From Arenibacter sp. ARW7G5Y1 (lineage in GTDB: Bacteria; Bacteroidota; Bacteroidia; Flavobacteriales; Flavobacteriaceae): DNA of 64,000 nucleotides. The notes under the pieces are model-generated. The model was given only the letters and a program-made list of their open reading frames with translations, was not told the origin of the DNA and ran no database searches. The number at the start of each line of letters is the position of its first letter. Within the stretch, counting starts at the first letter, position 1. Made by a program: the position numbers and the translations under genes. The stretch is taken from positions 1 through 64,000 of the forward strand of contig NZ_QJJZ01000018.1 of assembly GCF_003201775.1 (NCBI RefSeq), written 5' to 3'. Positions 1-28,726 of this stretch are shown one piece after another.

Positions 1-829
1 GATCTTCCAAAACAGTCTGTGATAAAAGGGTATGTCGGTCTTTATTGCCTTTCGAACCCTGTACTCTGATCAACATACGTTTACTGTCTACATCTGCCAT
101 TTTTAGGTTTAACAATTCACTACGGCGTAGACCTGAACTGTACAATAATGCAATGATACACTTATGTTTTATATTATTGGTTCTGCCAATGATAGACAGT
201 ACTTCTTCCTTGGATATAACTGTTGGCAGTTTAGATTCTTTTCTAGGTCGCTCGATCTCATAAAAGCGATTGGGCATACCTAAGACAACCTCATAGTAAA
301 ATTTAATAGCGTTTATACATTGGTTGAGATAGGAATTGGAAACATTCCTATGGACAAGTTTTTGAAGGAATGCCCTTATATCACTTTCGTTTATTGCATT
401 TAGTTCTTTGCCCTTGTAATGATTTATGAACATTTCGAAAAAGGAAACGTAGGTCCGAACAGTACTATTGGCGTACCTTTTAAGTTCCAGTTTCAATAGA
501 TATTCTTCAGGACATAGTCTGTAGTGTGGTATAGGGTTTCTTTTCCTGAACCACTCGACATCTACGGCATAATTATGGGTGTTTATAGGTTTATTCGACA
601 AAAACCTATTATAATTGATCCATACGATTCCTTTGAAAGTATTGAAAATTATACCGAGATTGTTCTTGGTATTGGGGATATAGGCCATATTATGTTCCTT
701 GCTCCATTTTGGATAAGGAAGGCCCCTGACCAGTCCTTGTATGAGCTTATCCGGCAAAAATTTAATGCCGATCATTTTTTCATTCCTGATCATCAAATGG
801 TAAAGCGTTATGGATTTAACCGGATTCAT
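1..829 (-). CDS. Tyrosine recombinase (XerC/D-like), C-terminus off left edge
   Basis: A site-specific tyrosine recombinase that would break and rejoin DNA through a covalent phosphotyrosine link. I translated the minus strand and found an unbroken frame from an ATG at 827-829 down to base 2, at least 276 codons. The first ~105 residues are an extra N-terminal region. Then comes a SAM-like core-binding domain (about residues 115-200), then the start of the catalytic domain with the box I arginine in SSGLRRSELLNL and the strand-turn RVQGSKGNKDRH. The His-x-x-Arg box and the tyrosine lie beyond the window edge, so activity cannot be judged. It is divergent from the zinc-ribbon gene 65 bp away. 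The family is clear; whether it serves a mobile element or the cassette-like array further right is unknown. Confidence 0.85.
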   Translation of the reverse strand, partial: MNPVKSITLYHLMIRNEKMIGIKFLPDKLIQGLVRGLPYPKWSKEHNMAYIPNTKNNLGIIFNTFKGIVWINYNRFLSNKPINTHNYAVDVEWFRKRNPIPHYRLCPEEYLLKLELKRYANSTVRTYVSFFEMFINHYKGKELNAINESDIRAFLQKLVHRNVSNSYLNQCINAIKFYYEVVLGMPNRFYEIERPRKESKLPTVISKEEVLSIIGRTNNIKHKCIIALLYSSGLRRSELLNLKMADVDSKRMLIRVQGSKGNKDRHTLLSQTVLED

Positions 830-1406: not shown

Positions 1407-2615
1407 TTATAGCAGAAGTTCGACAGCTTTATCCAAGACATTGCTTCCTAGCTCCTTTAAGTACACTTGGGTCGTGGTCAAATCTTTATGCCCCAAAGAT
1501 TCGCCGATAACATCCGTCGCAACACCTTTTTGTTTTAAACAATTGGCAAAACTATGTCGGGCTACATAACTGGACAACGATTTTTTTATGCCGCATATGC
1601 CAGCAATTTCCTTTAGGTCCCGGTTATATTTAGCCAAGGTCTTCTTTTTGCGATTAGCGATTTGGGAAGGGGTAAGTCCATCCTTTAAAAGTATGGGGAA
1701 TACATATTTGGTAGGCAACGAATGTTTTTGGTAATAGTTTAAAATTTCACGTACCGGTGGAAGTATGGTTATAACAAACCTACCCTTGGTTTTGTTTCGA
1801 ATGTAAGAAATCGTTTTTGAATCGACATCCTGCCATTTAAGTACCATCATATCGGTATAATTCATTCCCCTCGTATAAAAGCTGAATATAAAATAATTTC
1901 TGGCATCTGCTAGGTGGGGAAATTTGGATATATTGAAGTTGATGATTTTGGATACTTGATCAAAGTCCAAGGCCTTTTTAATACCCTGGCCTTTTAGCTT
2001 TGATATCTTATAGGTTTTGAAAGGATGGTCGATGTCCTTTATGATGTTGCGATCTATGGCCTTATTGTACATAGCTCTCAAAGTGCGTTGCTTAATGCTG
2101 ATTCCTCCATCCGTTCCGCCCCTGGATCTTAGCCATGCCTCATATTTATTCAAAAAGGTATTTGTTATGTCTTGAAACGTTATTTTTCTATGTCCGCAAA
2201 AGTTTTTGACCGATTTCATGGTCTCTTCATACATCGCAGCATTTCCCATTCTTCCTGCGAGTTTCAATTCAGAAACTATTTCTTCCCAAAAAGAAAAAAC
2301 AGCATCGTTTGAAGGATTGCTGTCCACCCGGAAGCGCTGACCAAATTCAGCAAGGTTGAAAGATTCCTTTTCAAATTCAAGATCTGCATAGACCTTTAAT
2401 GCACGTGCTTTTATCTTCAACAGTAGCCTATTGTTTTGGATGTAGTTGGCATTGTTTTTATTAAAACAACCTGATGGGGAATCCCATTCCCTTTCAGAGC
2501 TTTTAAATATGGTGTTGAAATATTTTGTTTTTCTATCTTTAGTGATTCTTAGGCAGACAGGATAAGTGCCATCGGCAAGGCCTTTTTTCCTCAAAACAAT
2601 CTTGATACTGGACAT
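1407..2615 (-). CDS. Tyrosine integrase of a tRNA-targeting element
   Basis: A complete 402-residue integrase of the Bacteroidetes mobile-element type. It has an N-terminal arm-binding domain (about 1-90), a SAM-like core-binding domain (about 100-200) and a C-terminal catalytic domain. Visible catalytic elements are the box I arginine in YTRGMNYTDM (about 245), the box II motif YVARHSFA (about 357), the GHKDLTTTQVY segment with its His, and the tyrosine nucleophile near residue 389. Box II has Tyr where many relatives have the first His, as often seen in this clade. Its start lies ~150 bp from a 3' tRNA fragment, so it most likely belongs to an element extending leftward whose right end is that fragment. 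It looks intact. Confidence 0.9.
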   Translation of the reverse strand: MSSIKIVLRKKGLADGTYPVCLRITKDRKTKYFNTIFKSSEREWDSPSGCFNKNNANYIQNNRLLLKIKARALKVYADLEFEKESFNLAEFGQRFRVDSNPSNDAVFSFWEEIVSELKLAGRMGNAAMYEETMKSVKNFCGHRKITFQDITNTFLNKYEAWLRSRGGTDGGISIKQRTLRAMYNKAIDRNIIKDIDHPFKTYKISKLKGQGIKKALDFDQVSKIINFNISKFPHLADARNYFIFSFYTRGMNYTDMMVLKWQDVDSKTISYIRNKTKGRFVITILPPVREILNYYQKHSLPTKYVFPILLKDGLTPSQIANRKKKTLAKYNRDLKEIAGICGIKKSLSSYVARHSFANCLKQKGVATDVIGESLGHKDLTTTQVYLKELGSNVLDKAVELLL

Positions 2616-16093: not shown

Positions 16094-16660
16094 TGTTTGT
16101 TAGGTTATTTAAACTGTTATCACTTAGATAAATAGAATAATATATTTCCAAGCATGATTTATCCGGTGACTGTGAGGTCAAATTTGCTCGTCAAGTTAAT
16201 AATTATATTTATAAACAAAAAAACATCACCAAAATATGATTTTTAATAGGTATTGGATATAATATAATTTTTACCCTATATACCATCATACTTTTTAAAA
16301 TAGGGTGCCTCGTTCCTTTATATTCCTTTAAAATCTACATTTGCAAACTATCCAAGCAGCGGTGGCATACTTATCATGAAAAGGCCAACTATTCTCTATA
16401 GGGTGGGTATGATAATTTGGGTTAAAGAGTTAATAGATTGACTCTAGTTTAGAGTTGATAATTTGAATTTACGGCCTTTTCGTTGTACATACTGAAATAT
16501 CACAGATACCATTCGTAGTTTGCCTTCTACGGTATACCATGAGGTAAAAGCCCCTTAATTTTATTTCTTTGTCAAAGCGATGTCTATAGCAGTGCATATC
16601 AACAAATAAAATACTAAATTAGAGCAATAAGAGGAGTATAAGCTTTAGTTGCTATATTCA
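16094..16660. other. Long non-coding region with first copy of the cassette repeat
   Basis: The right part holds a diverged copy of the intergenic repeat described at 17319, 20537 and 21311: bases 16488-16581 begin CATACTGAAATATCACAGAT and continue through CTACGGTATACC to a TTTATTTCTTTG end. A TATAGGGTGGG box at ~16400 resembles the TAGGGTAGGG box of the other copies. At 16273-16306 there is an inverted ACCCTAT / ATAGGGT pair. The left end must contain the promoter of the ECF sigma gene. No gene is visible. Confidence 0.5.
16488..16581 (+). repeat. Cassette-spacing repeat, copy 1
   Basis: Aligns by eye with copies at 17319-17412 and 20537-20625 (shared CATACT, AATAYC, CAGATA, ATTCG, then ACGGT and a T-rich CTTT end). 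It lies about 110 bp before the P-loop gene. Confidence 0.5.
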
Positions 16661-16691
16661 ATTGTTGTACCTCATTAAAACCCAAAACTCC

Positions 16692-17171
16692 ATGAAGTCT
16701 TTAATAATCAAAGGAACTAGTAACGAAGGAAAATCAACAACTGTAAGAGAACTTTGTAAAAGTTTGAACCCTGAAGGAATTTGGAAATTGGAAATGGATA
16801 CTAGTTCATATTCCGAAAGTCTATTAGTTGAATCCGAATTATCTAACATATTCAACAATACATTTGTAATACAAATTAATGGACAATTAGTTTTAGTTTG
16901 TGCTGGGGCACCAACAGAACAATCTATAAAAATCACCGTTATTATAGATATTTGTTTAGAGATTGGCTTAAAAATCAAATTCGCCATTGTTTCAATGCGC
17001 TCATCAGAAAGAAAAAAAGGATTTGATACCCCAACAGAACTCGAAAATATAAGTGAATTTTTGAAAATAGAAAGAATACATAAAATTAAAGTGGATAATT
17101 TTATGGAATCACAAGAGTGGAAAAATAGAATTGAAAACTTGAAAAATTATATTTTAAGTGAAATAAAATAG
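16692..17171 (+). CDS. Small P-loop protein, function unknown
   Basis: A protein of about 159 residues when started at the ATG at 16692, which directly precedes the nucleotide-binding loop GTSNEGKST. An upstream TTG start at 16662 is possible but less convincing. Beyond Walker A there is a short acidic strand and no clear Walker B. The size and fold suggest a small kinase-like or dethiobiotin-synthase-like NTPase, but I recognise no family. The gene is very AT-rich compared with the sugar-uptake locus, and the cassette repeat flanks it on both sides. Confidence 0.6.
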   Translation: MKSLIIKGTSNEGKSTTVRELCKSLNPEGIWKLEMDTSSYSESLLVESELSNIFNNTFVIQINGQLVLVCAGAPTEQSIKITVIIDICLEIGLKIKFAIVSMRSSERKKGFDTPTELENISEFLKIERIHKIKVDNFMESQEWKNRIENLKNYILSEIK

Positions 17172-17318
17172 TGAGTAACATCAACAGACCTTTGACAAGC
17201 ACTAATCCATCCTTCCTAATTATCTGTACCTAAAAGTGTATATTTTATTATCATCCATAATGTTGATTTTGGGGTGTATAATTTTGAGTGCCACTTTTCT
17301 GCATCTAACCAGTTTTAA

Positions 17319-17520
17319 CATACTCAAATACCGCAAATAGAATGCGTAGTAGATCCTTTACGGTTTTCCGCAACTTACTTTTCAAGTAAATGTTTTTCTT
17401 TATGGCCATAATAAGGCACGCCCTGGTAACAGAACTCCACAAAAAATAGGGTAGGGTGGTATTGGCATAAAGCCCTTTGATAATTAGCAGTCAACTAAGA
17501 AGGTTTATTAAATTGGACAA
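17319..17520 (+). repeat. Cassette-spacing repeat, copy 2 (both boxes)
   Basis: Box 1 (17319-17412) runs from CATACTCAAATACCGCA to TTTACGGTTTTCCGCAACTT and a TTTTTCTTTATGG end. Box 2 (about 17441-17520) contains AAATAGGGTAGGG and ends AGGTTTATTAAATTGGACA. It fills most of the gap between the P-loop gene and the TraB-like gene; the next start is 68 bp away. Confidence 0.65.
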
Positions 17521-17587
17521 CTATAAGAAAAATAGTAAAAACCAAAATCTATTATTGTACGTAATTTAAAAACTCTACCTATACAAA

Positions 17588-18235
17588 TTGAAAACCAATA
17601 TTTATCTAATTTCAACTGTTCATAGCGAGAAAGGCAATTGCACTTCTAAAAGCCTATTTGAAATACTCCATAAAATTAAACCCGATGTGATTTTTTGCGA
17701 AGCTTCAACAAAAATGTACGAAGAATTCAAAATAGGATTAAATCAATCTTCTCTTGAGTTAAATGCAATTAAGAAATTATGTGAATTTCATTCGTTCTAT
17801 TTTCTTCCTGTTGATACCGACCCACCATTAAGTTCCAACATCAGAAATCAATTTGAAGAAATCAAAACATCATTAAAAAAGGACGAAATATTCACAACGA
17901 TTTGGAGTAAAAAGGAAGAACATACAAAATTGTTCGGCTTTAAATATTTAAACAGCGACGACAACAACAAACTATTTGACAAAATATTAAAAAGAATAAA
18001 TTATGTAATACCTCGATTAAGTAATTCAGAATATAAAATCACGTACAAAAAGTGGTTGCATTTCCATGACAGCCGTGAAAATACAATGTTAGAAAACATT
18101 AACTCCTTCGTTGAAAATAATGAATTAGAAAACGCAGTTTTTCTTTGTGGATCAGCTCACCGAAAGTCAATTACAAATAAAATTAAAGAGAAAAAAAATA
18201 CTCGTCTAAATTGGAACTTTGAATTCCCAAAATAA
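17588..18235 (+). CDS. TraB/ChaN-like protein
   Basis: A 215-residue protein with a TTG start at 17588; no closer ATG exists. The N-terminal strand LISTVHSEKG and following KPDVIFCEAS, together with C-terminal VFLCGSAHRKSI, resemble the His- and Glu-bearing motifs of the TraB/GumN and EreA-ChaN superfamily, proposed metal-dependent hydrolases. The match is motif-level only. It stands alone between two repeat copies, and the downstream copy starts 6 bp after the stop. Confidence 0.6.
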   Translation: MKTNIYLISTVHSEKGNCTSKSLFEILHKIKPDVIFCEASTKMYEEFKIGLNQSSLELNAIKKLCEFHSFYFLPVDTDPPLSSNIRNQFEEIKTSLKKDEIFTTIWSKKEEHTKLFGFKYLNSDDNNKLFDKILKRINYVIPRLSNSEYKITYKKWLHFHDSRENTMLENINSFVENNELENAVFLCGSAHRKSITNKIKEKKNTRLNWNFEFPK

Positions 18236-18240
18236 TAAAA

Positions 18241-18405
18241 TTACGGCTTCCCGCAAACCACTTTGCCGATAATTGTTTTTCTTTATGAATATAGAATTGG
18301 ACAAGTCAGTTTAATCAAGGCCTAGAAGAATTGGGTAGAGGAGGTAAGGGCAATAGGCCCACCCTACATTATAAATGGCCAACAAAAAAGATTTACTAAA
18401 TTGGG
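18241..18405 (+). repeat. Cassette-spacing repeat, copy 3
   Basis: Starts TTACGGCTTCCCGCAA, followed by AATTGTTTTTCTTTATG, matching the second half of box 1. Box 2 is represented by GGGTAG, an inserted CCCACCCTA piece, and AAAAAGATTTACTAAATTGG at 18385-18404. It separates the TraB-like gene from the Crp gene. Confidence 0.6.
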
Positions 18406-18474
18406 CCTATAAAAGGAATATAGTTAATAACAATATCCAATTGTTGAAGGCATTATCTAAAAACCTATATAATC

Positions 18475-19050
18475 GTGAAAAGCGAAATACTAAAATACCT
18501 TTCAAAATATACTAAAGTCACTAATGAGTTAGAAAGCGCAATTATAAAAAGTACTTTTATTGAAAGTTTTAAAAAAGGAACCATCCTACTTAATGCAGGA
18601 GATATTTCAAATGAGTGTTACTTCTTATTAAAAGGTTGTATAAGAAGTTATATTATTGAAAATGGTGAAGAAAAAACTATTGAATTTTATACGGAGGAAC
18701 AAGTGGTTACACCATTTAACTATGGAAAATCCACACCATCAAACTATTATTTAGAATGTACTGAAAATGTCATAGTCAGTGTAGGTAATCCTAAATTGGA
18801 AAAAGAGACATTTTTACAATACCCACAATTAGAATCTTTATCCAGAGTAATTGCTGAAGTTATAATGGCTAAAAACCAGGACTCCTTTGCCAAATTTAAA
18901 ACATCCAACCCTGAGGAAAGGTACTTGAATATGCTAAAAGAGAGACCTGAATTAATTCAACGAGTTCCTCAACACCAAATCGCTAGTTATTTAGGTATAA
19001 AACCAGAATCATTAAGCAGAATAAGAAAGAGAATAATTAACAAAAAATAA
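18475..19050 (+). CDS. Crp/Fnr-family transcriptional regulator
   Basis: A 191-residue regulator with a cyclic-nucleotide-binding-like beta-roll (about 25-115) and a C-terminal helix-turn-helix (QHQIASYLGIKPESLSRIRKR, about 165-187). The start is a GTG at 18475. The Arg-Ser phosphate-binding cassette of true cAMP receptors is not visible, so it probably senses another ligand, as is common in Bacteroidota. It opens a compact three-gene unit with the DUF4386 and beta-barrel genes and may regulate them. Confidence 0.85.
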   Translation: MKSEILKYLSKYTKVTNELESAIIKSTFIESFKKGTILLNAGDISNECYFLLKGCIRSYIIENGEEKTIEFYTEEQVVTPFNYGKSTPSNYYLECTENVIVSVGNPKLEKETFLQYPQLESLSRVIAEVIMAKNQDSFAKFKTSNPEERYLNMLKERPELIQRVPQHQIASYLGIKPESLSRIRKRIINKK

Positions 19051-19104
19051 TTTCTTAACTATAGTCAATGAATTGAATATTATATCCATCTACTTTTGCT
19101 GTAT

Positions 19105-19779
19105 ATGGTAAATAAGCAATTTTCAAAAATAGCAGGATGTCTGATTTTTATTGGTGTAGCAACTGGTGTTTTAAGTATTATTCCTTCTGTTGAAAGTGAA
19201 AAATATCTTGAAATTGTTTATCAAAATAAAACTAAAGTTTTAATTGGAGCACTTTTTCAATTTCTTCTAATTCCCATCTATATAGGTTACTCTTTAATAT
19301 TATATTATCTATTAAGACAGTATAACAGCATTCTTTCGATCGGGTTTATTGGATTTCGATTTATGGCTGGAGTATTTCAGTTAATAGGAATAATATTATT
19401 ACCGACATTTATCCTTTTGAGTGAAAAATACTCGACTGGAATAGATTCCAATTTAATATTTTATGAAACAGCCGGTGAAATATTGAGAATCTCTAGAGAT
19501 TTAATTAATCATTTAGGTGTGATTATAGCCACGGGATTAGGAAATTTACTTTTATACAGTATACTTTATAAAGAAAAAAACATTCCTATCTGGCTATCAA
19601 TATGGGGAATAACAGGAAATGTATTAATAATGTTAGCTGGCATTTTAATTTTATTCCAACTGATTGAAGTCATTTCAACTGAATATGTAATTATAGCAAC
19701 TCCTATTTTATTACAAGAAATAATTTTGGCTATTTGGCTTATAAAAAATGGGTTGAAGCATACAAAAATGTCATATTGA
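19105..19779 (+). CDS. DUF4386 membrane protein
   Basis: A multi-pass inner-membrane protein of 225 residues (ATG at 19105). About six hydrophobic helices are visible, and the pattern SKIAGCLIFIGVATGVL at the N-terminus and LISRDLINHLGV-type central motif fit DUF4386. Function of the family is unknown. It starts 54 bp after the Crp gene and probably shares its transcript. Confidence 0.8.
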   Translation: MVNKQFSKIAGCLIFIGVATGVLSIIPSVESEKYLEIVYQNKTKVLIGALFQFLLIPIYIGYSLILYYLLRQYNSILSIGFIGFRFMAGVFQLIGIILLPTFILLSEKYSTGIDSNLIFYETAGEILRISRDLINHLGVIIATGLGNLLLYSILYKEKNIPIWLSIWGITGNVLIMLAGILILFQLIEVISTEYVIIATPILLQEIILAIWLIKNGLKHTKMSY

Positions 19780-19845
19780 GTTTAGTCTTAATACTAATAA
19801 ATATTTGTTATAAACCTTTAGAGAAGTAATTTAATTCTACATTTT

Positions 19846-20394
19846 ATGAAAAAATCCTTTTTAATTATAGCTATGCTATTTTCAATTCTTGCGGTCAATG
19901 GACAAAATCAAAGCGAAACAGTTTCTAGATTATTCGAAAATAATAACGAACTGAAAATTAATGTCTATTTCACAGGACTTGGATTATTTGAGGGAACTTA
20001 TGAAAGAAATTTAAACAGTAAATCATCATTAGGAATAACTGGATTGTATGCTTTTAGCCAAAAATACGATGAGGATGTAAATTTTCAAATATCTCCTTTT
20101 TATAGGAGATACTTTGGTAGAAAATATGCTTCAGGTTTTTTTACGGAAGGATTTGGAACACTAGGTTCAACTGATGGCAAGCAATTAACTGATATAAATG
20201 GAAACTTAACTTTAAACGAAGGTCCTGATGTTATTGATGTATCCCTCGGTTTAAGTGTTGGATACAAATGGGTTGCCAAAAGCGGAATTACTTTTGAGGC
20301 TTTATTTGGAATGGGAGGAAATTTATTTAATGCTGATAAAACAGACCATAACATTATTAATCGTCGCGCGATAAGTATAGGTTACCGATTTTAG
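19846..20394 (+). CDS. Small outer-membrane beta-barrel protein
   Basis: A 182-residue secreted protein: a clear signal peptide (MKKSFLIIAMLFSILAVNGQ) followed by amphipathic strands ending in Phe, the outer-membrane barrel signature (ISIGYRF). Likely an 8-strand porin-like or DUF3575-type barrel. It is the last of the Crp/DUF4386/barrel trio, 66 bp after DUF4386. No specific role can be given. Confidence 0.8.
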   Translation: MKKSFLIIAMLFSILAVNGQNQSETVSRLFENNNELKINVYFTGLGLFEGTYERNLNSKSSLGITGLYAFSQKYDEDVNFQISPFYRRYFGRKYASGFFTEGFGTLGSTDGKQLTDINGNLTLNEGPDVIDVSLGLSVGYKWVAKSGITFEALFGMGGNLFNADKTDHNIINRRAISIGYRF

Positions 20395-20735
20395 ACTGAG
20401 TAAAAACCTTTTACATCAGCCAGTCCTATTAAAAAAAAACTGGTCCTGTTCCCTAAAAGGTTAATATTTTTTTTACTTTACAACCCCTAAAGTCGATTTA
20501 GATCTGAAGAATTGTTCAGCCTCTGATCCCGTTGCACATACTCGAATACCACAGATAGTATTCGCAATATGCCCTTGAGGTTCCCCGCAACTTCCAATTC
20601 CAGCAATTAATTTTCTTTATTTGCAATTTTACGACATTAGCTGACAAATCAAATGTCATGAATAAATCAGATTATAACCGTTATCCATAATCAATTTAAA
20701 ATTTAATTTTAGGGTTGAATAATAGTATATGTGAT
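20395..20735 (+). repeat. Cassette-spacing repeat, copy 4, in long gap
   Basis: Box 1 spans 20537-20625: CATACTCGAATACCACAGAT, then ATTCGCAATATGCCC, GGTTCCCCGCAACTT and TTTTCTTTA. Within it CGAATAC (20543-20549) and GTATTCG (20558-20564) form a perfect 7-bp hairpin with loop CACAGATA; outside this GTTGC pairs with GCAAC. Box 2 is not recognisable here. An unrelated imperfect repeat of CCTTTTA/CTAAAAGG lies at 20406-20461. Confidence 0.55.
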
Positions 20736-21287
20736 ATGAATAAAATTGCAAAAAAAATAAGCGAAATGCGGAAAAGCAAAAGACTGACTCAGGAAGAATT
20801 AGCTGAACAATCAAATATAAACATAAGAACTATTCAGCGGATTGAAAGTGGTGAAAGTGAACCACGAGGTAAAACTCTAAACCTTATATGCGATGTTTTA
20901 CAGATCGATATTTCGGAATTGATTCCTAATGAGGATTCAATGACAAATAATTTTGGAGCATTAATTATAAATAAATTTTTCCTTTTAGCTTTAAATATGG
21001 TGTTAATGGGAATGATAGGTTATTTAACATTAGATTCAAACGCTAATCTTAACAGCAGATTTGGTGGATTGATGTTAAGTATATTTCTGCCTTACTTTAT
21101 AGTTACTTTGACAAAAAAGATGAATAGTAAAGAGCGCATGTTTAAATTTGGATATATCATCTACTTTGTTTTTATCATAATAAAGCACGGATTCCCAATA
21201 GGATTCGGCACTGGATTGTTTCCTTGTCTTCTGATAAGTCTGTCAGTCTTATATTTTGGGGCGGATTTGATAAAATACTTGGATTAA
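20736..21287 (+). CDS. Membrane-anchored XRE-family regulator
   Basis: A 183-residue protein, started at the ATG at 20736. The first ~65 residues are an XRE helix-turn-helix (ISEMRKSKRLTQEELAEQSN, TIQRIESGESEPRGKTL). The remainder has about four hydrophobic helices, so the DNA-binding head is tethered to the membrane. Such HTH-plus-membrane proteins are known in Bacteroidota, but their signal is unknown. It forms a single-gene unit between repeat copies 4 and 5. Confidence 0.8.
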   Translation: MNKIAKKISEMRKSKRLTQEELAEQSNINIRTIQRIESGESEPRGKTLNLICDVLQIDISELIPNEDSMTNNFGALIINKFFLLALNMVLMGMIGYLTLDSNANLNSRFGGLMLSIFLPYFIVTLTKKMNSKERMFKFGYIIYFVFIIIKHGFPIGFGTGLFPCLLISLSVLYFGADLIKYLD

Positions 21288-21310
21288 AACGTGTTAGTAC
21301 AAACCACCAC

Positions 21311-21475
21311 TTTACGGTTTCCCGCAACTTATTTTGCAAAGAATTATTTTTCTTTAGCTCCATAAAATTAAACTAATCAATGTCATCCAGACCCCACAAA
21401 ATAGGGTAGGGGACAGCAGAGTCATAAACCATCTAATTAATAACTAGCACAACTAAAAAGATTTATTAAATTAGT
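21311..21475 (+). repeat. Cassette-spacing repeat, copy 5
   Basis: Box 1 begins TTTACGGTTTCCCGCAACTT, then TTTTGCAAAGAATTATTTTTCTTTA. Box 2 has AAAATAGGGTAGGGG at ~21397 and AAAAAGATTTATTAAATTAG at 21455-21474. It lies 24 bp after the XRE stop and 106 bp before hsdR, so the restriction operon occupies the same position relative to the repeat as the other cassette genes. Confidence 0.65.
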
Positions 21476-21580
21476 TAATTAATTAAGAGTAAGTGCTGAC
21501 ACTATTAAGTTGTATTTGAATGCTTTGGAATAAAGGAAATAAATTTACCGAAATCCCATAGGTAAGTGAATTAGAATTAG

Positions 21581-23962
21581 ATGAATAAAAAAGACTTATC
21601 AGAATCGGACATTAAAGCAAAGTTTATCACACCTGCGATTCTAAATTCAGGTTGGGATGAGCAAACTCAACTGGGGCGTGAAATATTCTTCACTGACGGT
21701 CGAATTTATGTGAAAGGAAAACTTACCGCTAGAGGAAAGAGAAAGTTTGCCGACTACATCCTTTTTTACAAACCTAATGTTCCAATTGCGATAATTGAAG
21801 CAAAAGACAATAAGCATTCGGTAAGAGGAGGAATTCAACAAGCTCTCGGTTATGGAAATACTTTGGACATTCCTTTTGTCTTCAGCAGTAATGGTGACGG
21901 ATTTTACTTTCACGATAAAACCGTCACAGAAGGAGAAATTGAAAAAGAAATTTCCTTGGAGGAATTTCCAAGTCCGCTAGAATTATGGACCAAATACAAA
22001 AGGTATAAGGGAATTGAATCTCCAGAAATTGAAGAAATAGTTTCGCAAGACTATTTTCAGGATGGTTCAGGGCGTTCCCCGAGATATTACCAACAAAATG
22101 CCGTTAATAGGACCATTGAGGCAGTTGCTAAGAAACAGCAGCGAATCATTTTGGTGATGGCCACTGGAACTGGAAAAACGTATACCGCTTTCCAAATCAT
22201 TTACAGACTTTGGAAAAGTGGAGCAAAAAAAAGGATTTTGTTTTTAGCGGATCGTACAGCTTTAATTGATCAAACCGCCAGAGGTGATTTCAGGCATTTT
22301 AAAGATGCTCTGACTATCATCAAAAAGAAAAAAATTGATACCGCTTACAATGTATATTTAGCTCTTTACCAAGGACTCTCTGACAGCAACGGTGATGATG
22401 CTTACAAACAGTTCAGTCGCGAATTTTTCGACCTGGTAATTATTGACGAGTGCCATAGAGGCAGCGCAAAGGACGATAGTAAGTGGCGGGAAATATTGGA
22501 ATACTTCAATACGGCAACCCATATAGGACTTACAGCAACACCAAAGGAAACAACTGAGGTTTCAAATACCGAATATTTTGGGGAACCCATTTATACCTAC
22601 TCACTTAAGCAAGGAATTGATGATGGTTTCCTAGCTCCTTACAAAGTAGTTAAGGTAACATTGGATATTGATGCGGAAGGTTGGAGACCACCAAGTGGTT
22701 TTTTGGACAAGGACGGAAACCCTGTTGAAGATCGGATTTATAACCGAACAGATTTTGACAAAAACATTGTTGTCGAGGAACGCAGAAAAATTGTAGCAGC
22801 AAAAATCACAGAGTTTTTAAAAGGATATGACCGATTTGCGAAAACTATTGTTTTCTGCATAGACATTGAACATGCCGAAGGCATGCGTAGCGCATTGGCC
22901 AATGCCAATGCTGATTTATTTGCTGAAAACAGCAAATACATCATGCAAATTACGGGCGACAATGAGGAAGGGAAACGGGAGTTGGACAACTTTATCAATC
23001 CAACTGAAACCTATCCCGTTATTGCCACTACGTCAAAGTTAATGACCACAGGTGTTGATGCCCAAACTTGTAAATTGATCGTGTTGGACAGTAACATTGG
23101 TTCAATGACAGAGTTTAAACAGATCATTGGTAGGGGCACAAGAATCAATGAGGAATATGGCAAGACCTATTTTACCATTATGGATTTCAGAAACGTCACC
23201 AATCTTTTTGCCGACCCTGATTTTGATGGGGATCCGGTAATGATAAAAGATGTTGGAGAGGATGAAGACCTTTCAGGAACCGAAGAAGAAACTACCGAAA
23301 CACCAATTATCGATGTCGACGGCGAGGAAGTAGATTTCCCTGAACGTCCTGAATACCCGGAAATTACTGGCGGTGGTGAAATTGTTGAGGGACCCAGAGC
23401 AAAAATAAGGGTAGATGGTGTGCGAGTAAAAATCGTAAACGAAAGAGTTCAGTATTTGGGTACAGATGGTAAGATTATTACGGAATCGTTAAGGGATTAC
23501 ACCAAAAATAGCGTAACCAAGCACTATAAAACCTTGGATGAATTCTTAAACTCTTGGAACAATGCCGAGAAGAAAAAGGCGATTGTCAATGAACTGGAAG
23601 AGCAGGGTGTTTTCTTCGATGCCTTACAAGATGAAGTCGGAGCGGCCTTTGACCCTTTCGATTTAATTTGTCATGTGGCGTTTGAATCAAAACCGCTCAC
23701 AAGAAAAGAAAGAGCGGACAACGTAAAAAAGCGTAACTATTTTACCAAATATGGCGAGCAAGCTCAAAAGGTTTTGCAAAGTCTTTTGGATAAATATGCC
23801 CAAGACGGCTTAATAACCATTGAAAGTACTGAGGTTTTGAAACTTGACCCATTGAATAAATTGGGAACACCTATGGAACTTGTAAATGCCTTTGGGGGCA
23901 AACCACAATACATAAAAGCAATAAAAGAATTGGAAAAAGAACTGTATAAAACAGGAGCATAA
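21581..23962 (+). CDS. hsdR: Type I restriction endonuclease/translocase subunit HsdR
   Basis: The motor and nuclease subunit (793 residues). The N-terminal nuclease domain shows the PD-(D/E)xK pattern ending IAIIEAKD near residue 73. The DEAD-like helicase has Walker A MATGTGKT near 193-200, DECHRG near 291 and GLTATPKE near 313. A second RecA domain ends with QIIGRGTR, followed by an EcoEI-type C-terminal domain. It is the first gene of the operon and its stop overlaps the rhuM start. Putting hsdR first differs from the classic R, M, S layout only in the rhuM insertion. Confidence 0.95.
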   Translation: MNKKDLSESDIKAKFITPAILNSGWDEQTQLGREIFFTDGRIYVKGKLTARGKRKFADYILFYKPNVPIAIIEAKDNKHSVRGGIQQALGYGNTLDIPFVFSSNGDGFYFHDKTVTEGEIEKEISLEEFPSPLELWTKYKRYKGIESPEIEEIVSQDYFQDGSGRSPRYYQQNAVNRTIEAVAKKQQRIILVMATGTGKTYTAFQIIYRLWKSGAKKRILFLADRTALIDQTARGDFRHFKDALTIIKKKKIDTAYNVYLALYQGLSDSNGDDAYKQFSREFFDLVIIDECHRGSAKDDSKWREILEYFNTATHIGLTATPKETTEVSNTEYFGEPIYTYSLKQGIDDGFLAPYKVVKVTLDIDAEGWRPPSGFLDKDGNPVEDRIYNRTDFDKNIVVEERRKIVAAKITEFLKGYDRFAKTIVFCIDIEHAEGMRSALANANADLFAENSKYIMQITGDNEEGKRELDNFINPTETYPVIATTSKLMTTGVDAQTCKLIVLDSNIGSMTEFKQIIGRGTRINEEYGKTYFTIMDFRNVTNLFADPDFDGDPVMIKDVGEDEDLSGTEEETTETPIIDVDGEEVDFPERPEYPEITGGGEIVEGPRAKIRVDGVRVKIVNERVQYLGTDGKIITESLRDYTKNSVTKHYKTLDEFLNSWNNAEKKKAIVNELEEQGVFFDALQDEVGAAFDPFDLICHVAFESKPLTRKERADNVKKRNYFTKYGEQAQKVLQSLLDKYAQDGLITIESTEVLKLDPLNKLGTPMELVNAFGGKPQYIKAIKELEKELYKTGA

Positions 23963-24951
23963 TGGACGGCAATTCTCAATTCCTCATTTATCAAACCGAA
24001 GATGGCCTGACCAAAATCCAGACCCGATTAGAAAACGAAACAGTTTGGTTAACTATCGAGCAGATGGCGGAGCTTTTTCAAAAAGGAAAATCAACCGTTA
24101 ATGAGCATATTCTTAATATTTACAAAGAAGGGGAACTGGATCAAGAGACTTCTATGAGAAAAATCGGGATTTCCGATTTTTCTACCAAACCTACTAATTT
24201 TTACAATCTGGACGTCATTATTTCAGTGGGCTACAGAGTAAAAAGCATTCAAGGGACCAAGTTCAGACAATGGGCAACAGCTCGCTTGCGTGAATACATC
24301 GTAAAAGGCTTTACCATGAACGATGAGCTGCTCAAAGAAGCAGGCGGCGGTAATTACTTTGATGAGTTATTGTCACGTATCAGGGATATACGCTCGTCCG
24401 AGAAAGTCTTTTGGCGAAAGGTGTTGGATATTTATGCTACGAGTATCGACTATGACCCTAAAGCGGATCTATCTCAAACATTTTTCAAAACAGTACAAAA
24501 CAAAATGCATTGGGCAGCTCACGGTCAAACGGCTGCAGAGGTGATTTACCTACGAATAGATGCTTCAAAACCAAATCTTGGACTCACTAATTTCAAAGGT
24601 GAAAAACCAACAAAGAAAGAAACAGAGGTAGCCAAAAATTACTTGGATGAAAAAGAGTTGGATGTACTTAACCGAATGGTAACGGCATATTTGGAATTAG
24701 CAGAACTCCAAGCTCTGAATCGCAAGCCTATGTACATGAAAGATTGGGCTAGCAGACTGGATGATTTTTTAACCATGACAGGAAGCGAAATCTTAACTAA
24801 TGCAGGTAAAATAAGTCACAAAAAAGCTCTGAAAAAAGCTCATGAAGAATATGAGAATTATAAAGAGAAGATGAAAAACGATCTTTCTAAAGTTGAGAAA
24901 GACTTCATTAAACAAATAGATTTGACCAGTAAAAAATTAAAAGGTAAATAA
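23962..24951 (+). CDS. rhuM: RhuM-family protein within the hsd operon
   Basis: A 329-residue RhuM/Fic-like-associated protein. The N-terminal half has the signature WLTIEQMAELFQKGKSTVNEHI, ISVGYRVKS and FRQWATARLREYIVKGF; the C-terminal part from about 290 is a lysine-rich coiled coil. RhuM was first named as a Salmonella virulence-linked gene, and relatives are often found inserted in type I restriction loci. The biochemical role is unknown. It overlaps the hsdR stop and abuts hsdM, so it is translated as part of the same operon. Confidence 0.9.
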   Translation: MDGNSQFLIYQTEDGLTKIQTRLENETVWLTIEQMAELFQKGKSTVNEHILNIYKEGELDQETSMRKIGISDFSTKPTNFYNLDVIISVGYRVKSIQGTKFRQWATARLREYIVKGFTMNDELLKEAGGGNYFDELLSRIRDIRSSEKVFWRKVLDIYATSIDYDPKADLSQTFFKTVQNKMHWAAHGQTAAEVIYLRIDASKPNLGLTNFKGEKPTKKETEVAKNYLDEKELDVLNRMVTAYLELAELQALNRKPMYMKDWASRLDDFLTMTGSEILTNAGKISHKKALKKAHEEYENYKEKMKNDLSKVEKDFIKQIDLTSKKLKGK

Positions 24952-26376
24952 ATGGCAAACGTAGGCGCTGTAATAAACAGTATCAGGAACATAATGAGGC
25001 AGGACAGAGGTATCTCTGGGGATGCGCAAAGATTGGAACAACTCGGATGGATGTTGTTTCTCAAAATAATAGACGACAAGGACCAGGAACTGGAAATTAC
25101 CAAAGACGATTATGTATCCGTAATCCCTGAGAAATTTCAATGGCGGACTTGGGCAACAAATGCCGAAGGAATTACCGGTGATGAACTTTTGGAGTTTATT
25201 GATAGCAATGCACAGGACAACAAAGGTTTGTTTGCCTCACTGCGAGAACTGACAAGCATTGCCAATCCAAAAAGAGCCGCCATAGTTAAAGAGGTATTTG
25301 AAGGCTCCAACAACTACATGAAATCCGGGTATGAAATGCGTAAAGTCATTAATAAACTTAATGAAGTTGACTTTAACAATTCGGAAGACAAACACATATT
25401 TGGTGACATATACGAAAGTATTTTGGTAGAACTGCGTGACGCAGGAAATAAAGGCGAATATTATACGCCAAGAGCTGTAACCCAGTTAATGACCCAAATG
25501 ATCGACCCTAAATTGGGTGAAAAGGTGTTGGATCCTGCTGCGGGTACCGGTGGTTTCTTAACGGCTGCCATAGACCATGTACGGGAAAATTATGTGCATA
25601 CCGTAGAAGACGAACACCAATTGCAAAAAAGCATTACTGGTTGGGAATTTAAGCCCGTTGCCTATGTTCTGGGCTTGACCAATTTAATTCTGCACGAAAT
25701 GGATATTCCGGACTATCATTATATGGATAGTCTAAAAAAGGAATACAACAGCATTGGAGCAAAAGATAAAGTGGACGTTATACTGGCAAATCCGCCTTTT
25801 GGAGCCAGTATTGCCGATGGTGTGGAAACCAACTTTCCGGCCACCTACCGTTGTAAGGAATCTGCCGATTTATTTGTGATTTTAATGTTGCAACTCTTAA
25901 AACCCAAAGGTCGAAGTGCAATAGTTCTTCCTGACAATTCAATTACTGGTGATGGTGTTAAATATAGAATAAGAAAAAAATTAATGTCTGATTGCAATCT
26001 TCATACTATAATAAGACTCCCACAGTCAACATTTTTTCCGGCTACAGTTGGTACTAATCTATTGTTTTTTGAAAAGGGAACACCAACAAAGGGCATTTGG
26101 TATTATAAACATGAACTACCATTTGGACAAAAGAGCTACTCTAAGAAAAAGCCTATTCTTTTTGAAGAATTCCAACCCATTATAGATTGGTGGAATAAAA
26201 GAGAAGAAAACGAACAAGCCTGGAAAGTTAGTATTGACGAGTTAGATTTATTGAATTTAGATATTAAAAATCCAAACAGACAGAAAACTGAATTAATGTA
26301 CGATCGCTCAGAAATTCTAAATGAATTAAAGACATCTCAGATTAGGATTAATGAACTTTTAAATGAATTAAAATAA
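24952..26376 (+). CDS. hsdM: Type I DNA adenine methyltransferase subunit HsdM
   Basis: The modification subunit (474 residues), an N6-adenine methyltransferase. It has an N-terminal helical HsdM domain (about 1-135), the AdoMet motif DPAAGTGGFL at about 194-203, and the catalytic NPPFG motif at about 280-284. It starts directly after the rhuM stop, and its stop codon overlaps the hsdS start. Confidence 0.95.
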   Translation: MANVGAVINSIRNIMRQDRGISGDAQRLEQLGWMLFLKIIDDKDQELEITKDDYVSVIPEKFQWRTWATNAEGITGDELLEFIDSNAQDNKGLFASLRELTSIANPKRAAIVKEVFEGSNNYMKSGYEMRKVINKLNEVDFNNSEDKHIFGDIYESILVELRDAGNKGEYYTPRAVTQLMTQMIDPKLGEKVLDPAAGTGGFLTAAIDHVRENYVHTVEDEHQLQKSITGWEFKPVAYVLGLTNLILHEMDIPDYHYMDSLKKEYNSIGAKDKVDVILANPPFGASIADGVETNFPATYRCKESADLFVILMLQLLKPKGRSAIVLPDNSITGDGVKYRIRKKLMSDCNLHTIIRLPQSTFFPATVGTNLLFFEKGTPTKGIWYYKHELPFGQKSYSKKKPILFEEFQPIIDWWNKREENEQAWKVSIDELDLLNLDIKNPNRQKTELMYDRSEILNELKTSQIRINELLNELK

Positions 26377-27116
26377 TGTCTTTAAGCTTTAAATATATCC
26401 CTTTATCTTTTCAAACTGACCAAGAAGAGATAAAACAGCTAATAATCAACACACTTATTCTAAAGTACTTTTATGTAACATATGGTAAGTTAGAACCTTT
26501 AGATAAGCTTATTGAAGGCACACAGTATGGCTACAATGCTTCTGCACAAGACGAAGGAAGAAACAAATTTCTTAGAATTAGTGACATTAAGAATGGAAAC
26601 GTTAATTGGAATAAGGTGCCTTATTGTAATTGTGAAGATGAGAAAACGTATTTACTAAAATCTAATGACATTTTAATTGCTCGAACTGGCGGCACGACAG
26701 GTAAAAGCTTTATGATTTCAGAACCACCAAAACTTTCTATTTATGCGGGCTATTTGATTCGTATTCGAGCCAATGAAAACAACAATCCTAATTATATCAA
26801 ACTATTCTTAAATAGCTATGCATATTGGTCTCAAATTGTCTCTCTGAATGAAGATAATTTTAGACCGAGAGTAAATGCAAATTCATTAAAATCCTTATTA
26901 GTTCCAATTTGTTCATCTCAGAATCAACTTGATGCAATCAAAATAGCAGGTGGTGAATGTATAGAAGGTTATGATAAATTATATAAGGAGATTATACAAA
27001 TGGAAAAATGTAATGATTTAGAATATGAATATCAAAAAGCTGTTCTCCAAGTTCAAAAATTAAAAGAAGCAATGATACTTAATGCTTTTATGGATAAATC
27101 AGATGATGAAGTATGA
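26376..27116 (+). CDS. hsdS: Half-size specificity subunit HsdS
   Basis: The DNA-recognition subunit, but only 246 residues against the usual 400-450. It contains one target-recognition domain (about 35-185, with NKFLRISDIKNGNV, LKSNDILIARTGGTTGK and NEDNFRPRVNANSLKSL) and one C-terminal coiled-coil spacer (QKAVLQVQKLKEAMILNA). Half subunits of this kind can act as homodimers recognising palindromic bipartite sites. Its stop overlaps the start of the ATPase gene by four bases. There is no second domain or remnant downstream. Confidence 0.88.
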   Translation: MSLSFKYIPLSFQTDQEEIKQLIINTLILKYFYVTYGKLEPLDKLIEGTQYGYNASAQDEGRNKFLRISDIKNGNVNWNKVPYCNCEDEKTYLLKSNDILIARTGGTTGKSFMISEPPKLSIYAGYLIRIRANENNNPNYIKLFLNSYAYWSQIVSLNEDNFRPRVNANSLKSLLVPICSSQNQLDAIKIAGGECIEGYDKLYKEIIQMEKCNDLEYEYQKAVLQVQKLKEAMILNAFMDKSDDEV

Positions 27117-28726
27117 AAATAAAAAGTATACAACTCAAAAACGGATACAAACGTTTTTTTGACTTAACAATTGATTTGGGTGAGAATCCGAAAAGAATTA
27201 TTGCATTAGTCGGTCCTAATGGCTGTGGAAAAAGTAGTGTCTTTGATGGTATGCTTTTTCTAAGTAATGCATATGGTATGAATATAGGTAACAAGGGTTC
27301 TAAAAATCATACCTATCATTCAATGAATCAAACACCAAATTTTAGCTCTAATAATATAATTATTGAATTTACAGATGGAAACTACTATACTGTAAAAGAA
27401 AAAAAAGAGGCGTTAGGGAAAGGAAAAACGATATTTTCTCTAAGAAGCCCATATAGATATAATAGCAACCTCAAGGTTACACAGTCAAGAGCTACTAGTG
27501 AAATAAGACTCAATGGATATGGTGCATCATCATCATCTGACCTTGATGACAAGATGGAAGAAAACTATAGGCGACTAAATATAAAATATAACGATTTTTT
27601 AAATAAACAAGACTGTAAGCCAAGTGAAGCAAAAGCTAAAATTATTGGAGATTTAAATAGTGCTTTAGTTAATTGTTTAGATCTTGAAATAAGTAGCATT
27701 GGAAATATTGAAGCAAATCAAGGAACTCTATATTTCAAAAAGAATGACCATCCCTCAGAATTTGAATTTAATGTATTGTCTTCTGGAGAAAAAGAGGTTG
27801 TAGATATACTTTTAGACCTTTATTTAAGACAAAAAGAATATGATGATTCAATTTTTATTATTGATGAGCCTGAATTACACATCAATACAGCAATCCAAAG
27901 AAAATTACTAATTGAAATCAATAAGCTCATTGGTGATAATTGTCAAATTTGGATTGCAACGCATAGTATTGGATTTTTAAGAGCATTACAAGGTGATTTA
28001 AAGAGTCAATGTGAAATAATTCAATTTGAATCGGAAAAAAAATGGGCATCCGAGATTCAAATTTTAAAACCTATTAAAAAATCTATTACAAATTGGAAAA
28101 ACATATTTGAAACAGCTCTGGATGATTTAACAGGTTTAGTTAGCCCAAAAAGACTGATTTACTGTGAAGGCAAAGATGCTCCTGGAGCAAACGGCTTAGA
28201 AAAAGGGTTTGATGCCAAAGTTTTTAACAATATTTTTGGAGAGAAATATCACGATACTTTATTTATTTCAAGTGGAGGTAACACAGAACTTGACCAACGT
28301 AGTCAAGTAGCATTAGCTTTATTAACTAAAGTCTTTTCAGAAATTGAAATTCTTGTTTTAAAAGATAGAGATATGGCTTCAGGAAAATCTACTGGAGAAA
28401 AAGAACGACTATTATATCTCAAGACTAATCCAGACAACCATAGAGTTCTAAATAGATGGGAAATAGAGAATTATCTTTATGATAAAGAAGTGTTGAAAAA
28501 ATACTGTGCTGAAAATGGACTAGACTTTGATGAAGAAACTTATAACAAAACTGTAACAGATATTAACAATCAAAACCTTAAGGACGTAACTGGAAGGGTT
28601 AAGAATATATGTAATATTGTTGGCAGTATTAACCCAGAAAAATTTAAGCTTTCTTTATCTGAATTAATTACTGAAGATATGATTGTATTTCAGGAATTCG
28701 AAAAGGTTATTTTTAATCGAGAATAA
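27113..28726 (+). CDS. OLD-like AAA ATPase with TOPRIM/DUF4435-type nuclease region
   Basis: A 537-residue protein. The ABC/AAA head has Walker A VGPNGCGKSS (about 33-42), a signature-like LSSGEKEVVDILL and Walker B FIIDEPELH (about 249-257), then WIATHS. The C-terminal region (about 340-480) has RLIYCEGKDA, LFISSGGNTE and ILVLKDRDM, an OLD/TOPRIM or DUF4435-like acidic pattern that could bind metal for nuclease action. It overlaps hsdS by four bases. OLD-family and related ATPases are frequent anti-phage effectors, so this may be a second defence line triggered with the restriction system (inference). Confidence 0.85.
   Translation: MKIKSIQLKNGYKRFFDLTIDLGENPKRIIALVGPNGCGKSSVFDGMLFLSNAYGMNIGNKGSKNHTYHSMNQTPNFSSNNIIIEFTDGNYYTVKEKKEALGKGKTIFSLRSPYRYNSNLKVTQSRATSEIRLNGYGASSSSDLDDKMEENYRRLNIKYNDFLNKQDCKPSEAKAKIIGDLNSALVNCLDLEISSIGNIEANQGTLYFKKNDHPSEFEFNVLSSGEKEVVDILLDLYLRQKEYDDSIFIIDEPELHINTAIQRKLLIEINKLIGDNCQIWIATHSIGFLRALQGDLKSQCEIIQFESEKKWASEIQILKPIKKSITNWKNIFETALDDLTGLVSPKRLIYCEGKDAPGANGLEKGFDAKVFNNIFGEKYHDTLFISSGGNTELDQRSQVALALLTKVFSEIEILVLKDRDMASGKSTGEKERLLYLKTNPDNHRVLNRWEIENYLYDKEVLKKYCAENGLDFDEETYNKTVTDINNQNLKDVTGRVKNICNIVGSINPEKFKLSLSELITEDMIVFQEFEKVIFNRE

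Follow-up and report, generated by a model that had tools for sequence, protein, structure and literature searches.

Repeat-Linked Genes in an Arenibacter Contig

The window considered here is the whole 64-kb stretch (positions 1 to 64,000) of contig NZ_QJJZ01000018.1 from Arenibacter sp. ARW7G5Y1, a member of the Flavobacteriaceae, and this work concerns a run of genes in it that are separated by copies of a repeat, together with the integron-type recombination system of this family to which the run appears to be related. Five gaps in the run, lying between 16489 and 21513, each contain a diverged plus-strand copy of the same repeat, and between them are found single genes or one three-gene unit, an arrangement which the original prediction had described from the sequence and which the profile search reported below confirmed. 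The AT-richness that was also described is evident from the guanine-plus-cytosine (GC) content, which is 0.303 for the repeat-linked run and 0.397 for the whole window. The repeat had further been depicted as consisting of two boxes; although the shared repeat is real, its full core (about 200 nucleotides) is present in only three of the window copies (17320–17543, 18238–18446, and 21309–21513) and its best-conserved part, the right end, lies outside the boxes that were quoted. The statement that these boxes are unlike attC was right for the window copies, whose right end resembles the attI-like site of this family. The relevant features of the window are as follows.

2 to 829, minus strand: integron-type tyrosine recombinase, truncated at the contig start so that 276 N-terminal residues are left; 56% identical to the recombinase P0001 (see below) over the part present
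16489 to 16648, plus strand: repeat copy 1, diverged and detected as two pieces; right end ATTCAATTGTTGTAC
16692 to 17171, plus strand: cassette gene 1, without a Pfam match
17320 to 17552, plus strand: repeat copy 2, left module present; right end ..TCTATTA|TTGTAC
17588 to 18235, plus strand: cassette gene 2, without a Pfam match; a relative in Arenibacter genome G016 (79.5% identity) has a different neighbourhood
18238 to 18446, plus strand: repeat copy 3, core without the left module
18475 to 19050, plus strand: Crp/Fnr-like regulator (cNMP_binding), gene 1 of the three-gene unit
19102 to 19779, plus strand: DUF4386 protein, gene 2 of the three-gene unit
19846 to 20394, plus strand: DUF3575 protein, gene 3 of the three-gene unit
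20538 to 20646, plus strand: repeat copy 4, only the left half
20676 to 20690, plus strand: boundary CCGTTATCC, with GTT at 20680; it replaces the right half of copy 4 and precedes the helix-turn-helix (HTH) gene
20736 to 21287, plus strand: cassette gene for an HTH_3 regulator with a membrane part; relatives in Arenibacter genomes G005 and G016 (93.5–94.6% identity), with the repeat after each
21309 to 21513, plus strand: repeat copy 5, core without the left module; right end diverged
21581 to 28726, plus strand: type I restriction operon (hsdR, RhuM, hsdM, hsdS) and an AAA_21 gene, directly after copy 5

Occurrence of the Repeat in the Genome and in Relatives

A profile built from the five window copies alone retrieved nine further copies from the same genome with E-values of 8.8e-40 to 6.8e-11, and two additional short copies (2.2e-4 and 7.9e-4), in a search that covered 275,851 bases in stretches picked via a 16-base match to the repeat. 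The copies outside the window are located on contig 2 (five), contig 12 (three and the two short ones), and contig 1 (one), and the matches span most of the 224 positions of the profile. As these E-values are far beyond chance, the window repeat is real, and the alignment that had been suggested as a check has thus found its copies to be more alike than expected by chance. The suggested search in relatives was also productive: when the majority sequence was used as the query, matches were obtained in 16 of 60 genomes, including the present one, of which 13 were among the 18 genomes of the genus and three among the 42 others. Many of these matches were restricted to the right end, which is the part best conserved across genomes (a palindrome and CAATTGTTG), and the copies of about 200 nucleotides showed up to 89% identity to the majority sequence.

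Profile searches of 15 Arenibacter stretches revealed 44 copies of the repeat, and none of the nine stretches holding at least two copies contained them on mixed strands. For the 39 copies extending to the right end, the closest downstream gene was on the same strand in 33 cases and on the opposite strand in one, with no gene within 300 nucleotides in the remaining five. Beside one repeat copy (L011:205-816, minus strand), an open reading frame (ORF) with a masked run inside it was seen by eye to resemble the end of a group II intron maturase. Ends of the IS200/IS605 type were considered and dropped.

Integrase Genes and their attI-Like Site

The short matches to the right end in other genomes cover AAAGATTTAnTAAATTAG, a palindrome such as TATAGTTAATAACTATA, and CCAATTGTTG. 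In locus L133 the right-end sequence is located directly 3' of the stop codon of a full-length tyrosine recombinase, and in loci L131 and L132 it directly follows the end of a shortened one; behind these recombinases the first box of the right end overlaps the final codons. The recombinase of L133 (P0001, 374 amino acids) was used as a query, and its relatives (E up to 1e-60) were detected in 107 of 249 Flavobacteriaceae genomes, with 46 matches below 1e-130 in 41 genomes. The loci that were studied (n = 43) comprised 39 of the 46 strongest, one weaker one, and L131–L133. After the integrase stop codon, these loci share a layout consisting of a palindrome of about 22 nucleotides, which is very varied in sequence, a spacer of about 6 nucleotides, and GTTR. 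The palindrome arm had a mean length of 10.1 base pairs, compared with 4.2 in shuffled sequences, for the 35 of 43 loci that were scored, and in 30 of these 35 the palindrome was matched by fewer than 5% of the shuffles; eight loci were left unscored (L223 ends within the gene, the gene of L224 is broken, and the others failed the pattern), and the script placed L187 wrongly, the correct site being seen in a separate inspection. In the 43-locus set, the integrase gene adjoins an attI-like site in the 35 scored loci, with chains of cassettes in 26 of the 43, and members of the P0001 clade (E below 1e-95) are present in 12 of the 18 genomes of the genus. The co-occurrence of the repeat with tyrosine recombinases that had been suggested as a check is seen both in this right-end layout directly behind integrase genes and in the linkage of an integrase to an array in Arenibacter genome G005 (see below). 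Several contigs (at L188, L190, L208, L209, and L223) end within the integrase gene or no more than about 200 bases past its stop codon, and such breaks of draft contigs are expected if repeated arrays disrupt assemblies. At L138:6126-6743, an ORF resembling a serine recombinase by eye ends 22 bases before a right-end site.

The recombinase at the start of the window had been noted as an unassigned XerC/D-like enzyme lying 16 kb upstream of the run. Based upon its sequence, it is a member of the array-heading clade; however, it is cut and reads off the contig in the opposite direction, so that it would head a different, unseen array, located together with the attI-like site outside the contig. 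A second copy of this integron-type integrase, 85% identical and cut at the same codon, is found on contig 25 of the same genome (G000; 2-829, minus strand), and the two cut copies probably represent a collapsed assembly repeat. Next to the cut integrase in the window, a second tyrosine recombinase-like ORF of 402 amino acids was recognized by eye (1407-2615, minus strand).

In addition to the P0001 clade, a second integrase group was studied in 14 loci (L250–L263), whose integrases are 35–48% identical to P0001. As these loci were picked mostly for the presence of attC-like sites (R1 matches, see below) on the same contig, their carrying of arrays is not an unbiased observation.

Cassette Tags and attC-Like Sites

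In 24 of the 26 loci that were long enough for this test, the nine-nucleotide tag GTTRnnnnn that follows the palindrome has an exact reverse complement within 6 kb, whereas this was so for 42 of 638 tags swapped between loci. For an 8-base tag the corresponding numbers were 26 of 26 and 95 of 626, and for a 10-base tag 18 of 26 and 13 of 644. A site-to-site walk from the attI-like site identified at least one cassette in 26 of the 43 loci, a count in which the walk began at a wrong start in some loci (e.g., L195, L211, and L216) and single short-box links may be due to chance. The longest chains, both in single-contig genomes, contained 23 (L199) and 17 (L197) cassettes in a row. Scans of L197, L199, and the window with Rfam gave only two tRNA matches, one of which (L199:83-149) lies near the integrase that heads the chain of 23 cassettes.

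From these loci 72 attC-like sites were extracted, and 38 of them were aligned. Because the aligned sites were selected by an exact match of L'' and L', the pairing of these boxes proves nothing alone. The inner helix was not a criterion in the selection, and changes on both sides were observed in six of seven of its pairs (11 of 17 over all pairs). The unpaired stretches between the R and L boxes are unequal, with 3 compared with 6 columns, and such unequal unpaired stretches are a feature of attC sites. The extracted sites of this family also have paired R and L boxes at the cassette ends, as attC sites do. YAAC and GTTR are kept and are complementary to each other, and the further tag bases deviate from the RRY of RYYYAAC/GTTRRRY. 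Near-identical attC-like sites are found in several genera and in the genome to which the window belongs. Among 51 right-end sites of the repeat, 42 had a readable tag and 14 of these 42 had an exact nine-nucleotide complement downstream; the complement was located 306 nucleotides (L147) and 378 nucleotides (L013) before the end of the next repeat, and the repeat there replaces attC.

Distribution of the attC-Like Sites

A covariance model (R1) was constructed from the aligned attC-like sites and searched against Flavobacteriaceae and Bacteroidota genomes, with up to 13 sites scored per genome. Matches were present in 223 of 249 Flavobacteriaceae genomes (E up to 0.01), or in 211 of 237 when the 12 matched genomes that supplied training sites were left out, and in 93 of 247 Bacteroidota genomes (E up to 0.001). 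Within one genus of the family (g147), the sites were absent from at least nine genomes and present in five. The genome of the window itself contains 24 matches (E up to 1), 19 of which have E-values of 0.001 or less, on contigs 1, 2, 12, 22, 26, 28, 31, and 35, always on one strand per contig; those on contig 2 alternate with copies of the repeat and share their strand. All 15 R1 matches (E up to 1) in a further nine Arenibacter stretches likewise lie on the strand of the repeat. Up to 23 sites were counted per 20 kb (L259 23; L250 and L252 21 each). Among 19 integrase loci (five from Arenibacter and the 14 of the second group), the R1 sites share the strand of the integrase in 18; the exception, L261:15583-16374, is the only integrase pointing away from its attC array, which is the orientation of classical integrons.

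Links between the Window Genes and the Cassette System

The genes of the window are connected to these arrays most directly by contig 11 of the Arenibacter genome G005, where an integrase (1150-2277, 74% identical to P0001) is followed by an attI-like site and nine R1 sites, of which two score weakly (E 0.0034 and 0.011). About 17 kb behind this integrase there is a relative of the window HTH gene (93.5%), then the repeat (19343-19522) and a further two R1 sites, and all of these elements are on the plus strand. In three genomes the HTH gene is joined to the repeat at an identical place and followed by three different genes; these relatives were detected by tblastn, the gene clustering having missed them. 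For cassette gene 2 and its relative in G016, the left flanks are unrelated and the likeness begins at (A/C)|TTGTAC, which by sequence is the place of an integron crossover. The G016 flank before this gene ends in an attC-like manner (CCTAACC).

For the three-gene unit, tags were looked for in 11 loci that contain a relative of the Crp gene, and only Crocinitomix (L055) was tagged; there the Crp-like gene (L055:1945-2517) lies in a tag-matched cassette behind a palindromic attI-like site. The unit is complete and in order in Wocania, Wenyingzhuangia, and Cyclobacterium, but without tags, and hence these occurrences do not demonstrate its spread as a cassette.

Comparison of the Integrases with IntI

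The alignment of P0001 with IntI4 falls into two pieces around a region of 26 residues in P0001 vs. 69 in IntI4. P0001 passes the model NF040815, which is named tyrosine recombinase/integron integrase (227 compared with a cut-off of 220), but with 201 bits it is below the cut-off of 265 for TIGR02249. No protein above the TIGR02249 cut-off was found in 120 genomes of the family, although none was found in 14 control genomes either and the search thus had no positive control; the best stretches in the family genomes stop at model position 169–198 of 315. The distance from the catalytic lysine to the LRH motif is 74–75 residues in 59 of 61 clade members (67 in one, and one gene is broken), compared with 116 in IntI1, 81 in a Methylomonas integrase, and 80 and 82 in two Xer-like proteins of the present genome. 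In the integrase tree, the placement of IntI1 has a support of 0.28.

Interpretation of the Repeat-Linked Run

On the basis of these observations, the run in the window is very probably a decayed cassette array of a Flavobacteriaceae integron-type system whose integrase is a tyrosine recombinase related to integron integrases but lacks their extra domain. In the mechanism that we propose, the integrase would act on the attI-like site directly behind its own gene (the palindrome of about 22 nucleotides, about 6 nucleotides, and GTTR) and also on the attC-like sites with which the cassettes end. The tag GTTRnnnnn would open each cassette, and its exact complement would head the attC of that cassette, so that an excised circle would rebuild a matched site. 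The Arenibacter repeat would serve as a boundary within arrays, its right end copying the attI layout, with the next cassette starting at G|TTR. Support for this scheme at the sequence level is provided by the layout, the tags, the two-sided pair changes, the strand agreement, the integrase linkage, and the breakpoint of gene 2, and from these we infer that this integrase catalyses cassette recombination, presumably using the folded single strand of attC. The repeats were presumably once active, and the window copies would now be largely inactive. The original prediction had likened the run in plan to an integron, and this likeness is upheld by the cassette tags, the attC-like folds, the attI-like site behind the integrase, and the occurrence of the same genes in changed neighbourhoods.

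A number of observations weigh against this interpretation. The window contains no R1 site at E up to 0.5 or up to 1, and a tag is readable in three of its four right ends, with no exact complement for any of them. The folding that had been suggested as a check was carried out on both strands of copy 3 only, which as single-stranded DNA folds no better than its shuffles (z of −0.51 for the minus and −0.45 for the plus strand). It is because of the lack of an R1 site, of an exact tag complement, and of a significant fold in copy 3 that the window run reads as a decayed side array. Further, R1 finds no site in the G016 flank before gene 2, and the proposed scheme does not explain why the repeat is often joined at its left edge to the end of a gene or why the likeness of the HTH unit reaches about 70 nucleotides to the left of GTT. 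Lastly, the additional domain that is specific for IntI (the patch) is absent from the clade integrases as judged by alignment, spacing, and profile.

Of the other explanations, one is that the repeats are regions of homology, in which case ordinary homologous recombination would swap the intervening genes and no site-specific enzyme would be involved. This is consistent with the long copies, which are up to 89% identical to the majority sequence over about 200 nucleotides, and with the lack of exact tag complements in the window, but we consider it improbable, since gene 2 is preceded by the repeat in the window but by an unrelated flank in G016, with the likeness starting only from |TTGTAC, and since the tag complements and the link to the integrase are left unexplained by it. 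That the repeat is a small non-autonomous transposable element (a miniature inverted-repeat transposable element, or MITE) scattered between genes is suggested by its presence at several places in one genome and by the palindromes near both ends of some copies. However, the copies are clustered on one strand, with no mixing in any of the nine multi-copy stretches, the next gene is on the same strand for 33 of 39 copies (opposite for one, none within 300 nucleotides for five), and the right end is also found behind integrase genes, all of which make such an origin very improbable.

It is also highly unlikely that the repeat is simply an upstream element of genes, such as a 5' leader or promoter, that has been duplicated and has no role in recombination. 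The genes do start about 0–160 nucleotides past its right end and the repeat may hold a promoter, but the tag complements, the interleaved attC-like sites on the same strand, and the linkage to integrases are not accounted for in this manner; a leader or promoter function may instead be an added role of the repeat. Finally, the attC-like sites match known attC in plan, as they would if these were ordinary integrons served by a canonical IntI with the extra domain encoded elsewhere in the genomes, the patch-less recombinases being unrelated neighbours. Given that none of the 120 family genomes exceeded the integron-integrase cut-off (nor did the 14 control genomes) and that the patch-less genes directly precede the attI-like site of the array, this last explanation appears extremely unlikely.

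Relationship to Known Integrons

The patch domain has been described as confined to integron integrases and as necessary for them (PMC9668308; PMC8352920), it has been used for selecting such integrases (PMC2426708), and it is described as not fully conserved in an integron-like subgroup of tyrosine recombinases, yet essential for integron function (PMC8138268). Judged from its sequences, the present system is thus integron-like by its sites but departs from the definition of an integron in lacking the IntI domain, and in the account of the integron-like subgroup no patch-less member with cassette arrays is named (PMC8138268). As in the sedentary chromosomal integrons of Treponema, the integrase reads toward its site and the cassettes, and the arrays are long and co-oriented with single-gene cassettes carrying attC (PMC3607928). 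The system differs from them in that its integrases are without the IntI extra domain, its tag consists of GTTR and about five free bases and is not a strict GTTRRRY, and its attI-like site bears a long palindrome (PMC3607928). Integron cassettes are mostly promoterless single genes in one orientation; a single orientation is observed in the arrays described here, and the window includes one three-gene unit.

The window and other arrays of the same genome resemble the clusters of attC sites lacking integron integrases (CALIN) in having boundaries without an adjacent integrase, but the boundaries in the window are attI-like repeats and not attC sites detected by R1 (PMC9024848). They also resemble the Delta-attI-type gene cassettes of mobile integrons, in which attI-derived sites bound cassettes within arrays; however, the latter involve class 1 and class 2 attI and patch-bearing IntI, whereas an Arenibacter repeat of about 200 nucleotides is found here (PMC12901181). 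Integrons of Bacteroidota (PMC8618304; PMC9668308) or of the Bacteroidetes/Chlorobi group (PMC2426708) have been named before. For Bacteroidetes, only lone integrases (In0) and later one complete integron, in Salinibacter, were reported (PMC9024848), and IntegronFinder 2.0 reported no integrons in a Tenacibaculum genome (PMC10013915). In the accessible parts of the open-access literature, no description of Flavobacteriaceae attC arrays or of such integrases was found; most subscription papers and all preprints are outside this scope, and an earlier description is possible.

We consider it likely that the Flavobacteriaceae and part of the other Bacteroidota possess a largely unrecognised integron system with patch-less integrases, whose attC-like sites occur in about nine-tenths of the family genomes and in some of them number at least 20 per 20 kb. 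Among the natural devices that collect and shuffle genes, integrons are the best known. If this reading is true, then the patch would be dispensable for the recombination of attC cassettes, and Arenibacter would spread attI-like boundary sites through its arrays, perhaps bringing a promoter with them. If the arrays work, a major marine and soil family would hold a large pool of cassettes, which patch-based surveys (such as those using the profile described in PMC8352920) would miss as complete integrons. With attC-like sites beside a patch-less integrase, such a system would also allow a direct test of patch function.

Genes Flanking the Window Array

Relatives of the genes flanking the array (E up to 1e-40) are present in too few of the 18 genomes of the genus for a comparison with empty sites: with the present genome counted, three have a relative of the sigma factor and two one of the right flank. 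The last repeat copy does lie just before the hsd operon, as was originally noted (copy 5 at 21309-21513, the operon from 21581), but as regards the suggestion that the operon is itself a cassette, it may be regarded only as possible cargo. Within this operon the RhuM gene sits among the hsd genes, and the AAA_21 gene is located at the operon end.

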